IMG/VR virus record: IMGVR_UViG_3300025030_000317
Span: 1 to 32,073 of that record
Strand: one strand, 5' to 3'
DNA length: 32,073 nucleotides
Source: a virus
The position numbers were made by a program, and so were the translations under genes. Positions within the stretch are counted from its first letter, which is position 1. Each line of letters begins with the position of its first letter. This document shows positions 7,234-11,450 of this stretch, in pieces. The notes under the pieces were generated by a model, which ran no database searches, had not been told where the DNA came from, and worked only from the letters and a program-made list of their open reading frames with translations.

Positions 7234-7560
7234 TCAAGCAACTTTTTCAGCAACTTTTTCAGCATTATCTTTTCTTAATTTTTGAATTGCCAAATAAGAT
7301 GCCCTTGCTCTCAATCTCAAATTTCTCACTTCTAAAAGTTGCCCCGCCATTCCTTTGGCATTGTCCAATCTGCCTTCCAAAAATCTTTCCATTCCTTGTT
7401 TAATCAGATAGTCTTCTCTGGCATTAAGATACAGACGGAAAGTATCATTCTCATATAATTGGGCGAAAAGTCCCAATTGCTGTTCTTTGGATAAAGGCGG
7501 AATTGGTTTGTCTTTTCCAATTATCAAATCTATTATCAAATTTCTTATTTTATTTTTCAT
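7234..7560 (-). CDS. Helical protein of unknown function after groEL, 108 aa
   Basis: I use the ATG at 7560 (MKNKIRNLIIDLI). The frame is open 10 codons further inside the chaperonin gene. The ATG overlaps the last 11 bases of the chaperonin gene, so the two are coupled. The protein is all-helical, rich in Leu/Arg/Lys, with LSKEQQLGLFAQLYENDTFRLYL and RNLRLRARASYLAIQKLRK, and ends in the repeat EKVAEKVA. It has no GroES features (no mobile-loop GGI/V pattern, no beta barrel pattern). This slot usually holds portal-region genes. It might be a head-assembly accessory or a partner of the chaperonin, but nothing in the sequence proves that. Confidence 0.6.
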   Translation of the reverse strand: MKNKIRNLIIDLIIGKDKPIPPLSKEQQLGLFAQLYENDTFRLYLNAREDYLIKQGMERFLEGRLDNAKGMAGQLLEVRNLRLRARASYLAIQKLRKDNAEKVAEKVA

Positions 7561-9058
7561 CTTTTTCTTTGTTGGCGATAATTCCTTCAATGGTCAAAAG
7601 AACTTTAACCACACTGACTGAATTGGCAACCGCCGCCTTGACTACGAGATAACTGTCATACACTTCTTCCAAATCAAATTCTTTGCCTAGATTGTTTTGG
7701 ATTATCCTGTCATAAGGTTTTCGCAAGGCGTTATAAAGCAAAGATGTCTCACCAAGTTCATCAGAGATTTCTTTAAGAGTAACCCCGCCCCCTTTGACCA
7801 TTCCGTCATTTAACGCCCCTTTGCAAGAGTTCATCGCATCTTCCACTTTCAGTTTCAGATAATATCTTTCAGCCACGGTTTTAGCGTCCACATAAATCGT
7901 GGCGATACCGCCCAAGAGAGCCGCTATTCTTTTGTCCATTAAATCTCTTTCTTTGCCGTCTTTTTCCGTTTCTTTTAATTTCTCAATTTCTTTGACCCTT
8001 ACTCCGACTTTCGTCAGGGTTTCTTGTCCATAAACTAAACTTTCCAATCCCCGTCCGCCGATAAAAGTAGTTTCTTTTTCTCGGGCGATAAAAGTTTTAC
8101 AGAACCCCGCATCGCTGAATTTCGCTTCGGCTATCTTCACTCCGGTCTTGGGGTGGGTATCAATCAGTTTAGCGTCGCAGAAAGCGGCGATGTCCCCGAA
8201 AGTGTCATTGTGAAAGTTTCCCGAAACAAGAATTATGGGAAAATTCGCTCTCTTCACCGCATCGCTGACCGAGTTGATGAACGGAATAGAAAATTGTTTG
8301 GCCACTATCGCCAATCCGTTCTGCTTGGTCTTGCCTTGAAGCATAGAAAGCATAAATGGAGCAACTTCAAGATATTGCTCAAAGCAATGATTGGCGACTA
8401 AAATCGGGATTTCCGAACATTCCGCCTTACCCACTCCGTTGAACATTGAAGTTGTCGCTATATTAAAAGGAAAAGCAATACCATTAACAACAGAAGTTTC
8501 TATTTTCCCGTTAAAGCCATTGTCCAATATGGGATAAGCGTCTTTGCCCGCTTGCCACATTGTTTCCGCCACTATATCAGCCCCAGTTTTATCTTCCATA
8601 GCCGTATAAGCGACTTTCCGCAAATCTTCCAAACTTTCCACTTTTATAATTTTAGATTTAAGGATTTCTAACACCCTATCTTTTTCCGTTTCCAATTCTT
8701 TTGCCATTTCCATTGAGCTTTTGGCTTCTCCAAGAGGGGCGTCAATGTCGGGAACTCTGTCAATGCAGTCGCAAGCCAGTTGAGCGCCGATGACCATTGT
8801 CGTAGTCGTGCCGTCGCCAGCGTCTTTGTCTGTCTGCCGAGCCATTTCGTGGAAAGCCAAAGCTATGTTATCTTCGCACTCATCCTCAAATCGTATCTCG
8901 CTTACGATTGTCCGCCCGTCATTGGTAATGCCGGAGGGCAGAAAATAATTTCTTCCGGCCGGCCCCAAAGTCTTACCCAAAATGTCCCCGACTTGTTTGG
9001 AAACATTTTTAATCGCTCCCCTTCCTTCTCCTCCCAACTTATATATTTTTTTTATCAT
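7550..9058 (-). CDS. groEL-like: Phage-encoded GroEL-like chaperonin, 502 aa
   Basis: Group I chaperonin motifs are clear. The nucleotide-binding loop TLGPAGRN is at residues 30-37, with NDGRT after it. GDGTTTT at 81-87 is the phosphate-binding signature. A KVEDAMNSCKGAL segment keeps the Asp of the GroEL RVEDAL motif needed for ATP hydrolysis, and KGGGVTL matches the GGGVAL turn. The C-terminus has the NSVSVVKVLLTIEG helix but lacks the Gly-Gly-Met tail of bacterial GroEL. Total length is about 45 residues below the usual 548. No GroES gene is seen in the window, so it either uses host GroES or works alone, as reported for some phage chaperonins. Lying between terminase and scaffold, it most likely folds the capsid protein. 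The start is 4 bases past the TerL stop. Confidence 0.93.
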   Translation of the reverse strand: MIKKIYKLGGEGRGAIKNVSKQVGDILGKTLGPAGRNYFLPSGITNDGRTIVSEIRFEDECEDNIALAFHEMARQTDKDAGDGTTTTMVIGAQLACDCIDRVPDIDAPLGEAKSSMEMAKELETEKDRVLEILKSKIIKVESLEDLRKVAYTAMEDKTGADIVAETMWQAGKDAYPILDNGFNGKIETSVVNGIAFPFNIATTSMFNGVGKAECSEIPILVANHCFEQYLEVAPFMLSMLQGKTKQNGLAIVAKQFSIPFINSVSDAVKRANFPIILVSGNFHNDTFGDIAAFCDAKLIDTHPKTGVKIAEAKFSDAGFCKTFIAREKETTFIGGRGLESLVYGQETLTKVGVRVKEIEKLKETEKDGKERDLMDKRIAALLGGIATIYVDAKTVAERYYLKLKVEDAMNSCKGALNDGMVKGGGVTLKEISDELGETSLLYNALRKPYDRIIQNNLGKEFDLEEVYDSYLVVKAAVANSVSVVKVLLTIEGIIANKEKDEK

Positions 9059-9062
9059 TTTT

Positions 9063-11036
9063 TTAAGTAAATAATCGTCTTTTTTCTTTTGTAAGTTTCT
9101 TTTTCCTCTTTATCATTTCATTGAAAATTCTTTTTTCTTTATTCTCGCCGGTTTCAGATGAATAGAGTTTTGGAATAGCGGTTATTGCGTATCTAATTGC
9201 GTCACAATTAGATACCACTACTCCGTTTGCCACAAAAAAACCATTAGTCGTTGTTGTCGCATAAACGTCTTCTTGCCCGCAATGCTTTAGCTTTGCAATT
9301 ATTGTGGCAGAATTTTCCGTGTTTTGTTTTTGCAACATATTCTTTTCCACATTGGTTGCAATTTCTTGTAATTTTGTATCTTGGGAAATATGAAGCATTT
9401 TTAATACCTTGTCTTTTACGGAATTTTTGCCCTTCTTTAGTTTTACTCCACTCACTAGCTTTCTTAATGGTGTTTTTGATATTCTTTTGCCACTTTGGTA
9501 GCATTTCTTTATAGTGTTCCTTATTGTGTTCGGCAGGTGATAAACATTTGAGATTATCCAAACTATTATTAAGTGGATTGTGGTCTTTGTGGTGGATATA
9601 AAAACCTTTTGGCGTTTCACCATTATGTTTTTCCCATAAATACCTATGAAGCCGTTTTGCTTTATAGCCGAAACATTTCTCCGCAGAAGATTTAAAATAG
9701 TTCCGAAGCTCACTGCGACTGGATTTTGGGTATCGTCTAAAGGTAATTCCGTCAATAATTTGTTTTTCCATAACACTATTCTATCAGAATATCGCAACCT
9801 GTCCAGCGTCACAAAACCTCTTTGTGTTAAATAAGGATGGTCGGCTGTTACTTTTGAACCCATAAATTCATACACGTCTTTTTTGCCACTATATTTTTTG
9901 AAAAGAATGTAGCCGACAGGAATTTCAATTATCACATCTTTTGTAAAACAACAATGGTCAAAACCTTTTTCCGGTTCGTTCGGCGATACCAGTTTACCAT
10001 TTTTATCCGCCAGCCACAAATAATTCCTGTATTCGTGAATGATATTTACGCTTCTTTTGGTAACAGAAATTCTTTGGTCTTGAACCAAAGCAATTCCGCT
10101 TCGGACGCTATCTTTGCCTTTCTTACAAGGGATAATCGGAATACCAAAAGAGTGGATTTCATCAATGGATTTCGGCTCGGCGGAATCGGCGATGACCACA
10201 GCCTTATCTTGATTGGAAAGAATATCGGCGATTTGCTTATTGGACAGTCCTTTCTGGTAAAGAATTTCATCTAAAATCAAACCTTGATTCAACCGATAGA
10301 CGGCGACAATGGCCGAGGGGTCGGTCGTGTAACCAAAATCCAGCCCAAATTTCTCCAGTCTGGCTTCGTGGGGAACTTCGTCAATTATCTGCCAGTCCCT
10401 ATAAATCTTACCCTCCACTTCGCCCAACTGCCCTAGTCCATAAACCTGCCACCAACCTTTTCGGTTCTTCCTTTGCTCAATAGAGGCGATAATAGCCGGA
10501 TTCAAAGCCTCATTATCCTTGTAATTAAGAATAATGTGGTCTATATCACTTCTGTTGCCTTTGACATCGGTATAAAACCAAAACTCATTAGTCGGATTCC
10601 AATCCATATAAACAAAATCATTAGTCCTTATCTCCAACTGCTCAAAAGTTTCAAATGGAATGTTGTTGGCTTCGTTGATAAATAATCTATCTCTTCTTGG
10701 CCCCCTGACTTTGGCCGGTTGGTCAGCCGAAAAGAACTCTATCTTTGACCCTGTTTCAAAATTATAAGTAAAATCAGACCGGTTCCATTTGTCTTCCTGA
10801 TAATAACCGTGCTGTTGCATTATCGCTAAAAAATCTCTCATCGCCCCTTTTTTTAAATGGGGCAAACTTTCCGAAACAACGCTGGTTAATTTCGGATTTT
10901 TATCTGATTGAGCCAAATGAATGAGATAAAGAAGTATGCTTACCGTTTTTGACCCGGCTGTGCCGCCTTGGACAGCCCTAATCCTTTTGTCCATTTTCAT
11001 TATCTTCTTCGTGGCTGTCGTTATTTGAAATGCCAT
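9063..11036 (-). CDS. terL: Terminase large subunit precursor with intein, 657 aa
   Basis: This is the DNA-packaging motor. With the start at 11036 (MAFQITTATKK, preceded by AGGA at good distance), the ATPase has the deviant P-loop QGGTAGSKT (residues 23-31) and Walker B LFINEAN (118-124). The RNase H-type nuclease shows FGLDFGY (Asp 233), VVIADSAEP (Asp 284) and a final DHCCDAIRYAI after splicing. An intein of 248 aa interrupts that last motif, between DHC and CDAIRY. Mature TerL would be 409 aa, normal for the family. An upstream in-frame ATG at 11069 is possible but has a poor ribosome site. TerS lies about 700 bases upstream. Confidence 0.92.
   Translation of the reverse strand: MAFQITTATKKIMKMDKRIRAVQGGTAGSKTVSILLYLIHLAQSDKNPKLTSVVSESLPHLKKGAMRDFLAIMQQHGYYQEDKWNRSDFTYNFETGSKIEFFSADQPAKVRGPRRDRLFINEANNIPFETFEQLEIRTNDFVYMDWNPTNEFWFYTDVKGNRSDIDHIILNYKDNEALNPAIIASIEQRKNRKGWWQVYGLGQLGEVEGKIYRDWQIIDEVPHEARLEKFGLDFGYTTDPSAIVAVYRLNQGLILDEILYQKGLSNKQIADILSNQDKAVVIADSAEPKSIDEIHSFGIPIIPCKKGKDSVRSGIALVQDQRISVTKRSVNIIHEYRNYLWLADKNGKLVSPNEPEKGFDHCCFTKDVIIEIPVGYILFKKYSGKKDVYEFMGSKVTADHPYLTQRGFVTLDRLRYSDRIVLWKNKLLTELPLDDTQNPVAVSFGTILNLLRRNVSAIKQNGFIGIYGKNIMVKRQKVFISTTKTTIHLIIVWIISNVYHLPNTIRNTIKKCYQSGKRISKTPLRKLVSGVKLKKGKNSVKDKVLKMLHISQDTKLQEIATNVEKNMLQKQNTENSATIIAKLKHCGQEDVYATTTTNGFFVANGVVVSNCDAIRYAITAIPKLYSSETGENKEKRIFNEMIKRKKKLTKEKRRLFT
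9189..9215. repeat. 11-bp perfect inverted repeat at intein C-terminal junction
   Basis: GTATCTAATTG at 9189-9199 is mirrored by CAATTAGATAC at 9205-9215 around the spacer CGTCA. The splice junction (last intein Asn codon 9207-9209, extein Cys codon 9204-9206) sits inside it. It could form a small cruciform or hairpin and may be part of the homing target. Confidence 0.7.
9207..9950 (-). other. Intein within TerL, 248 aa, residues 363-610 of precursor
   Basis: The intein begins CFTKDVIIEI (block A, nucleophile Cys). It has block B GSKVTADHPYLT at intein residues 31-42, with the TxxH motif, then GFVTLDRL and a Ser-Asp turn. It ends VYATTTTNGFFVANGVVVSN (blocks F and G) followed by Cys as first extein residue. 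The penultimate residue is Ser instead of the usual His, a known but less common variant. Removing 248 aa restores the DHxxDAxRY terminase motif, which fixes both splice points. Between blocks B and F the in-frame sequence has no LAGLIDADG or HNH motif. The endonuclease lies in another frame of the same DNA. Confidence 0.9.
9244..9771 (-). CDS. HNH homing endonuclease nested out of frame in intein, 175 aa
   Basis: An ATG at 9771 opens a frame shifted relative to the TerL frame and ends at 9244, entirely inside the intein. It encodes an intact HNH protein: LHRYLWEKHNGETPKGFYIHH at residues 41-61, KDHNPLNNSLDNL at 62-74, LSPAEHNKEH at 78-86, the classic HNH_3 layout. A C-terminal zinc finger follows (Cys 138, 141, 155 and 159; CNQCGKEY...FCHNNC) with a basic end. 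It would cut an intein-free terL allele to drive homing. Its start overlaps the codons just after block B, and its end overlaps block F, so both frames are constrained. No Shine-Dalgarno is obvious (GTGTT before ATG), so expression may be by reinitiation or from a separate message. Confidence 0.88.
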   Translation of the reverse strand: MEKQIIDGITFRRYPKSSRSELRNYFKSSAEKCFGYKAKRLHRYLWEKHNGETPKGFYIHHKDHNPLNNSLDNLKCLSPAEHNKEHYKEMLPKWQKNIKNTIKKASEWSKTKEGQKFRKRQGIKNASYFPRYKITRNCNQCGKEYVAKTKHGKFCHNNCKAKALRARRRLCDNND

Positions 11037-11450
11037 AAATATCCTAATACCCTCCGTTATCCCTTCCATACCCCCGACATATCGGAGTTAAGGCTGGGCT
11101 GTAATAATCTTATAATCAATCTCTTATTAAGAACAAATGGAAGTTGCCAGTTGTTTGGAGGTGAAACAGAGCTGGGCTGATTCAGAAAGCTTTCCCTTTA
11201 TAAGCAAATCCTATCTGTTCTCAATAATTGAGCAAGTTTTTAGCCATTCCTCAATAGGGCTTGATTGATATTTAAATCAGAAAAAGCCGCCATTACTGAC
11301 GACTTCTTCCAATTTCGGTCAAGAAATTATGTTTGTTACCTCCAACAAACAAAATAGTATTTGTGATAAACCGCACCAACACTATTTTCTTTGTGTTTAT
11401 TAGAGGCATAATAGTTGACCTTTCATTAAGTCTAGCATACCCATTTCTTG

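Follow-up and report, generated by a model that had tools for sequence, protein, structure and literature searches.

How can a gene for the large terminase subunit (TerL) carry an intein whose endonuclease is written in another reading frame? Inteins are taught as fusions, in a single frame, of a splicing domain and an endonuclease. In the virus contig analysed here (32,073 nucleotides, hereafter the window), the first-pass annotation had described a TerL intein at 9207-9950 with an HNH endonuclease gene nested in it out of frame, and a check of ORFs and codons found the coordinates of both to be correct (Table 1). The terL ORF matched the Pfam families Terminase_3 (1.5e-8) and Terminase_3C (2.2e-10) and the PHROG terminase large subunit (3e-31). 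A chaperonin gene (7550-9058, minus strand; Cpn60_TCP1, E=1.5e-21) lies immediately downstream of terL. Another contig, L003, is identical to the window over 7,455 bp and possibly comes from the same sample.

The intein corresponds to TerL residues 374-621, from the C1 codon (9948-9950) to the N248 codon (9207-9209), and sequence features by which an intein is recognized were found in the window. The TerL frame is free of stops through the whole 248 aa. The insertion splits HC from CDAIRYA in the TerL nuclease active-site motif, and excision in silico restored a continuous GFDHC/CDAIRYA, the form that the last active-site motif of terminase nucleases usually takes. All the splice blocks that had been assigned to the TerL frame (C1 and blocks B, F and G) could be located by alignment; the nucleophile C1, T35 and H38 of block B and the terminal N248 were invariant across the intein alignment, and the cysteine at +1 is present. 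NCBIfam models of the N- and C-terminal parts of inteins matched many of the related inteins. In an AF2 model, pLDDT was mostly 79-91 in the splicing halves, which take up about residues 1-60 and 221-248, and most of the dual-coded middle was of low confidence and uninformative. The best Foldseek match of this model was the Ssp DnaB mini-intein, with a probability of 1.00 but a weak E value (0.022). The penultimate residue of the window intein is S, not H. In the group of inteins to which it belongs, the penultimate His is absent (SN or KN ends), as is the His of block F, and about 20 residues of the N-terminal splicing half (IxxIxxGDxVxTxxG), present in other inteins, are missing. For these reasons the splicing competence of the group is uncertain; judged from its sequence, the window intein would most likely splice itself out of TerL. 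A palindrome at 9189-9215 (GTATCTAATTG-TGACG-CAATTAGATAC) straddles the C-terminal splice junction; it was taken as a chance occurrence, because it is confined to the window and absent from related inteins.

The nested ORF matched the PHROG HNH endonuclease (2.2e-24). It begins on the third base of a TerL codon, which places it in the -1 frame, and it has its own ATG, preceded by a stop in the HNH frame. It lies wholly within the intein, where it overlaps residues 60-236, block F included. Conserved residues in HNH alignments were H60/H61, D63, N68, N69, N73 and H82. The AF2 model of the protein reached a mean pLDDT of 92.3, and its best PDB match was I-HmuI (1u3e, E 0.015). Pfam, the conserved motif and the AF2 fold all identify the product as an HNH_3 endonuclease. 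Profile searches of both frames found HNH_3 in the HNH frame only, with no LAGLIDADG or HNH match in the TerL frame of the intein, as the first reading of the sequence had noticed. That reading also held up on three further points: an intact 175-aa HNH gene lies out of frame inside the intein, the intein frame is open across it, and its codons overlap block F. The element is not a canonical homing intein, since its endonuclease is not in frame but is a separate, overlapping gene.

Table 1. Features of the intein-bearing terL locus (positions in the window).
Feature	Position	Strand	Evidence
terL, large terminase subunit gene (Terminase_3 / Terminase_3C), intein-bearing	9063..11069	-	ORF, 668 aa
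Intein, 248 aa, TerL frame	9207..9950	-	alignment with 27 related inteins; NCBIfam intein matches
Intein block B (SKVTADHPYLT)	9825..9857	-	T35 and H38 invariant columns in alignment
Intein block F (EDVYATTTTN), dual-coded with HNH C-terminal tail	9243..9272	-	codon-position pattern follows intein frame
Intein block G (ANGVVVSN), beyond HNH gene	9207..9230	-	intein alignment
HNH_3 endonuclease gene, 175 aa, nested in intein, -1 frame	9244..9771	-	ORF; Pfam 3e-15
HNH catalytic region (HIHHKDHNPLNN...NL...H)	9514..9600	-	conserved residues in alignments
Cys4 zinc finger, HNH protein C-terminus	9295..9360	-	invariant C138, C141, C155, C159

The probability that such an open frame occurs by chance was estimated by keeping the HNH protein fixed, shuffling its synonymous codons and counting stops in the TerL frame. 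The TerL frame was open in 1.75% of the shuffles, and in about 0.25% when codons were drawn according to usage in the host gene's upstream portion. This result is modest by itself, so that the relatives decide. HNH loci were collected by TerL and HNH searches of IMG/VR and phage records and by an HNH alignment search, from which the best 80 of 437 relatives were taken. The loci were then classified mechanically (n=93), and those sharing 90% HNH identity were counted as redundant. In 75 of the 93 loci (63 non-redundant), the HNH gene lay out of frame within a long open host ORF bearing an intein; nested loci on cut contigs show intein blocks on one side only. The arrangement had at first been treated as a lone oddity, and it turns out instead to be a widespread class. 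A Pfam scan of ten diverse hosts gave an Intein_splicing match in all ten, most of them bracketing the HNH gene, and a terminase match in nine (weakest in L113, none in L096). A species-genome scan of bacterial and archaeal contigs added 8 nested cases, one of them a prophage-like locus in an isolate genome, that of Bacteroides mediterraneensis (L140). The nested form is also present in two cultured phages, Acinetobacter phage Highwayman and Tetrasphaera phage TJE1, in both of which the locus is annotated as 'terminase' alone, and in a record named Rhodobacteraceae phage LS06-2018-MD07. Homologues with the HNH motif in frame with the intein, which were sought as the outcome that would speak against dual coding, numbered zero in the window HNH family, both among the 93 classified loci and in the species-genome scan. 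In-frame HNH inteins were encountered only in the ribonucleotide reductase ORF of an acidobacterium (L150, 787-5652), which apparently has two inteins with in-frame HNH motifs and matches the window HNH family weakly and partially.

The HNH gene had the same phase relative to the host frame in 62 of the 63 non-redundant nested loci, and all the cases added by the species-genome scan shared this phase. No host-frame stop was found in the 62 common-phase loci, against about 258 expected across all 63 with host codon usage. Free-standing HNH genes and those between split halves, used as controls, had stops at about the expected rate (in L039, for instance, 10 observed and 10.0 expected). The absence of stops in the nested loci and their expected rate in the controls indicate that the host frame is actively kept open; as the relatives are not independent, the product of their probabilities is not a p-value. 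Chance overlap was ruled out by the codon shuffles together with the 63 non-redundant relatives. The difference in stop content between the two phases can also explain the phase bias: the opposite phase contains about 17 stops per HNH gene, as expected, and would put these into terL, so that only the -1 phase is easily tolerated. L086 (3230-4060) is the sole nested HNH gene in the other phase, with a host frame that is still stop-free, and perhaps represents an independent origin of dual coding.

Selection on each frame, proposed in the first-pass annotation as a check, was followed through the rates of change at the three codon positions. The HNH frame came out clearly: third positions of HNH codons were the fastest-changing in every nested group, indicating that the protein is under purifying selection. 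The answer for the intein frame was mixed. In the window's group (for this comparison L023, L024, L045/L046, L047, L049 and L051) the intein frame appears to be constrained as well, with a pos3/pos1 ratio of 1.31 (1.11-1.56) against 1.8-2.0 in the split and free controls, and a pos2/pos1 ratio of 0.71 (0.58-0.83) against 0.84-1.02. Four-fold sites in the overlap changed more slowly than those of the adjacent intein N-half (ratio 0.74, 0.52-1.07), a difference that is not significant. In the block F stretch the third HNH position, which is the second intein position, was slow (0.13), and the first HNH position, the third of the intein, was the fastest (0.20), both values having wide intervals. 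Other nested groups, such as that of L056, showed little beyond stop avoidance. Apart from the avoidance of stops, the intein frame is modestly constrained, and in some groups weakly or not at all.

We consider it highly probable that the window contains a mobile intein, that is, a mini-intein invaded by an independently translated HNH homing gene, with the intein frame kept open for TerL splicing. A Hint-type mini-intein in the TerL frame would interrupt the last nuclease motif of the terminase and splice itself out. Its 177 residues that overlap the HNH gene would mainly form a tolerated loop, which has to remain stop-free. The HNH_3 homing endonuclease would be translated separately, from a start codon of its own inside terL, and, by analogy with other homing endonucleases, would cut intein-less terL at or near the insertion site; repair of the cut would then copy intein and endonuclease together. 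As to its origin, an HNH gene of a family found adjacent to terL probably entered the mini-intein at the usual position of endonucleases. For this phage, we infer splicing, HNH translation, DNA cutting and homing.

The main alternatives concern the way in which the two frames are expressed. The HNH protein might be produced by programmed -1 ribosomal frameshifting from the TerL-intein frame, which would give a fusion of the TerL N-terminal part, the intein N-terminal half and the HNH protein. The fixed phase is the one that such a shift requires, and the HNH start comes directly after the intein N-terminal half; against this, the phase bias is already accounted for by stop content, and L086 is in the other phase. 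A shift site would also have scant space, as the HNH start lies a median of 13.5 nt past a stop in the HNH frame (15 nt or less in 42 of 70). Shine-Dalgarno sequences were present at about half of the nested HNH starts (36 of 70), compared with 10 of 78 background ATGs taken upstream in the same frame (p=4e-7). In the window and its group no Shine-Dalgarno sequence was found at the HNH start, and most genes of the window are likewise without one; an ATG at the HNH start or at most 2 codons away is conserved in every member of the group. The upstream stop and the Shine-Dalgarno enrichment favour independent initiation, and we regard frameshifting as improbable. We give an equally small chance to a dead or relictual intein, in which HNH would have invaded terL and the open frame would be retained as a passenger loop, comparable to the ShiLan insertions discussed below. 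The SN/KN ends and the shortened N-terminal half of the window's group would fit such decay, as would the lack of a confident structure for the dual-coded middle. Yet C1, the T and H of block B, the terminal N and Cys+1 are all retained, the conservation of block F follows the intein frame, and other members match complete Intein_splicing domains that span the HNH gene. TerL is, moreover, an essential enzyme, to which 248 extra residues kept at its nuclease active site would be expected to do harm.

Two other explanations can be given almost no weight. As inteins usually have in-frame endonucleases and the window is a single virus contig, a sequencing or assembly error might have displaced an HNH gene that is truly in frame, or concealed a truly broken TerL frame. 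This was refuted in practice by the comparative data: the arrangement recurs in dozens of contigs, in cultured phages and in an isolate genome, and no in-frame homologue occurs in the HNH family of the window. Furthermore, a single frame error cannot bring the HNH gene in frame at both ends. Removal at the RNA level, by a group I or group II intron with a fortuitous resemblance to an intein, is brought to mind by the frequency of such HNH genes in phage introns and by I-HmuI, itself an intron endonuclease. It is just as implausible, since the TerL frame is open throughout, intein blocks stand at both ends and models of the N- and C-terminal intein parts match relatives; no Rfam intron match was found in this region of the window.

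Insertion points cluster at the last TerL nuclease motif, as xHx^CDAxRY (the window), NH^CxDAxRYA or xA^CRYA; another site is the ATPase-like motif VDDL^C (L022, L113). Yet another TerL site, GIDFGYE^CDPTA, holds the nested HNH intein found in the genome of an uncultured Bacteroidales (L139, 1997-4123). Members of the window's group share 54-64% identity with the window in the intein, but just 25-34% in the TerL parts. The nearest TerL proteins (58-68% identical) align with the window TerL up to the insertion point only, and close TerL relatives with a readable motif are intein-less, with the motif unbroken (FSHSMDAIRYG, for example). An intein identity higher than that of TerL, together with intein-less close relatives, is consistent with horizontal spread by homing, and spread of the window-type intein in this way would fit these sequence comparisons.

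In brucellaphages, a putative intein-encoded HNH gene has been noted out of frame within terL (PMC4422536, Virol J 2015). By its description, to which our comparison is limited, that case resembles the window in having an HNH ORF that overlaps terL in another frame; in the accessible part of the report it is a passing remark on one closely related phage group, with no analysis of splice blocks, phase, selection or relatives. The ShiLan domain and the Pacc40 gp60 insertion are associated with out-of-frame HNH genes in phage DNA methylases (PMC11855218, Genes 2025). They share with the window an HNH gene in a frame other than that of the host gene, which stays open, and a disjunct, homing-like distribution, but their authors detected neither intein nor intron splicing domains there, whereas in the window splice blocks are present in the host frame and a predicted Hint splicing domain flanks the HNH gene. 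Conventional homing inteins, whose LAGLIDADG or HNH domain is in frame, include the mycobacteriophage TerL inteins, at a site in the ATPase domain (PMC5050341). Like these, the window intein is a probably mobile element in terL with its endonuclease between blocks B and F; unlike them, it has a separate endonuclease in another frame and a site in the TerL nuclease motif. The paper on the ShiLan and Pacc40 insertions cites a 2025 preprint (10.1101/2025.01.02.630785) on actinobacteriophage inteins of 'non-canonical architecture'. In the literature covered, which took in few subscription papers, no analysis of a class of TerL inteins with nested HNH genes was found. The endonuclease is an overlapping gene in at least 63 non-redundant inteins, nearly all of them in terminases, and these make up a large natural set of dual-coded sequences that combine an essential host gene with a selfish second gene. 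The nested endonucleases are hidden from annotation. The tolerance of these inteins for a middle section of about 170 largely unconstrained residues may also interest protein engineers.

Relatives of the nested HNH gene were found in two other settings. Some are free-standing beside an intein-less TerL. In the split form, TerL ends with the N-half of an intein, the HNH ORF follows, and the C-half is carried on the TerL C-terminus (L032, L043, L068, L091/L092, L093, L116 and L121); five more split-looking loci (L135-L138 and L141) came from the species-genome scan. Of the two descriptions offered by the first-pass annotation, a dual-coding intein agrees with the intein frame being open in every contiguous case, and a mini-intein invaded by a free-standing HNH gene agrees with these two settings; that they are mutually compatible is supported by the data. 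The phase in which the C-half overlaps or comes after the HNH gene matches that of the nested loci in 13 of 14 split loci, which suggests common descent. In the HNH tree the nested, split and free forms are intermixed, with 7-9 changes between them; its support is weak and a single origin is also compatible with it, so that the order from nested to split is one that we infer. Natural split inteins, the 'fractured genes' of Dassa et al. (2009), reportedly have a free-standing endonuclease gene between their halves. The TerL elements resemble these in that a separate endonuclease gene stands between the intein halves and HNH relatives are found in split TerL inteins. The window intein differs from them: it overlaps the HNH gene as a single uninterrupted polypeptide, with one open frame in place of halves on two polypeptides. 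We tentatively suggest, as a possibility somewhat short of even, that the window belongs to a widespread class of phage-terminase homing inteins with dual coding, which would be the missing link between mini-inteins, free-standing HNH genes and split inteins. The HNH gene would enter in the one phase that is readily tolerated, after which both frames would be kept; once the open intein frame was lost, the intein would be left split, with the endonuclease lying between the halves. The series of free-standing, nested and split forms makes the origin of split inteins testable. In Exiguobacterium phage vB_EauM-23 (L040, 1050-3225), an HNH gene separates two parts of terL, the first up to NNHSMAA and the second from NNQCDATRYAM; no intein blocks and no Rfam intron were recognised at this interruption. 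Among phages with known hosts, the L043 split TerL intein is that of Lactobacillus phage CL2 (455-2771), and Vibrio phage 1.238.A (L123, 3-3371) and Brochothrix phage BL3 (L124, 709-2604) have the split form too; none of the three is annotated as such, and in BL3 the HNH gene is reduced to its C-terminal part.
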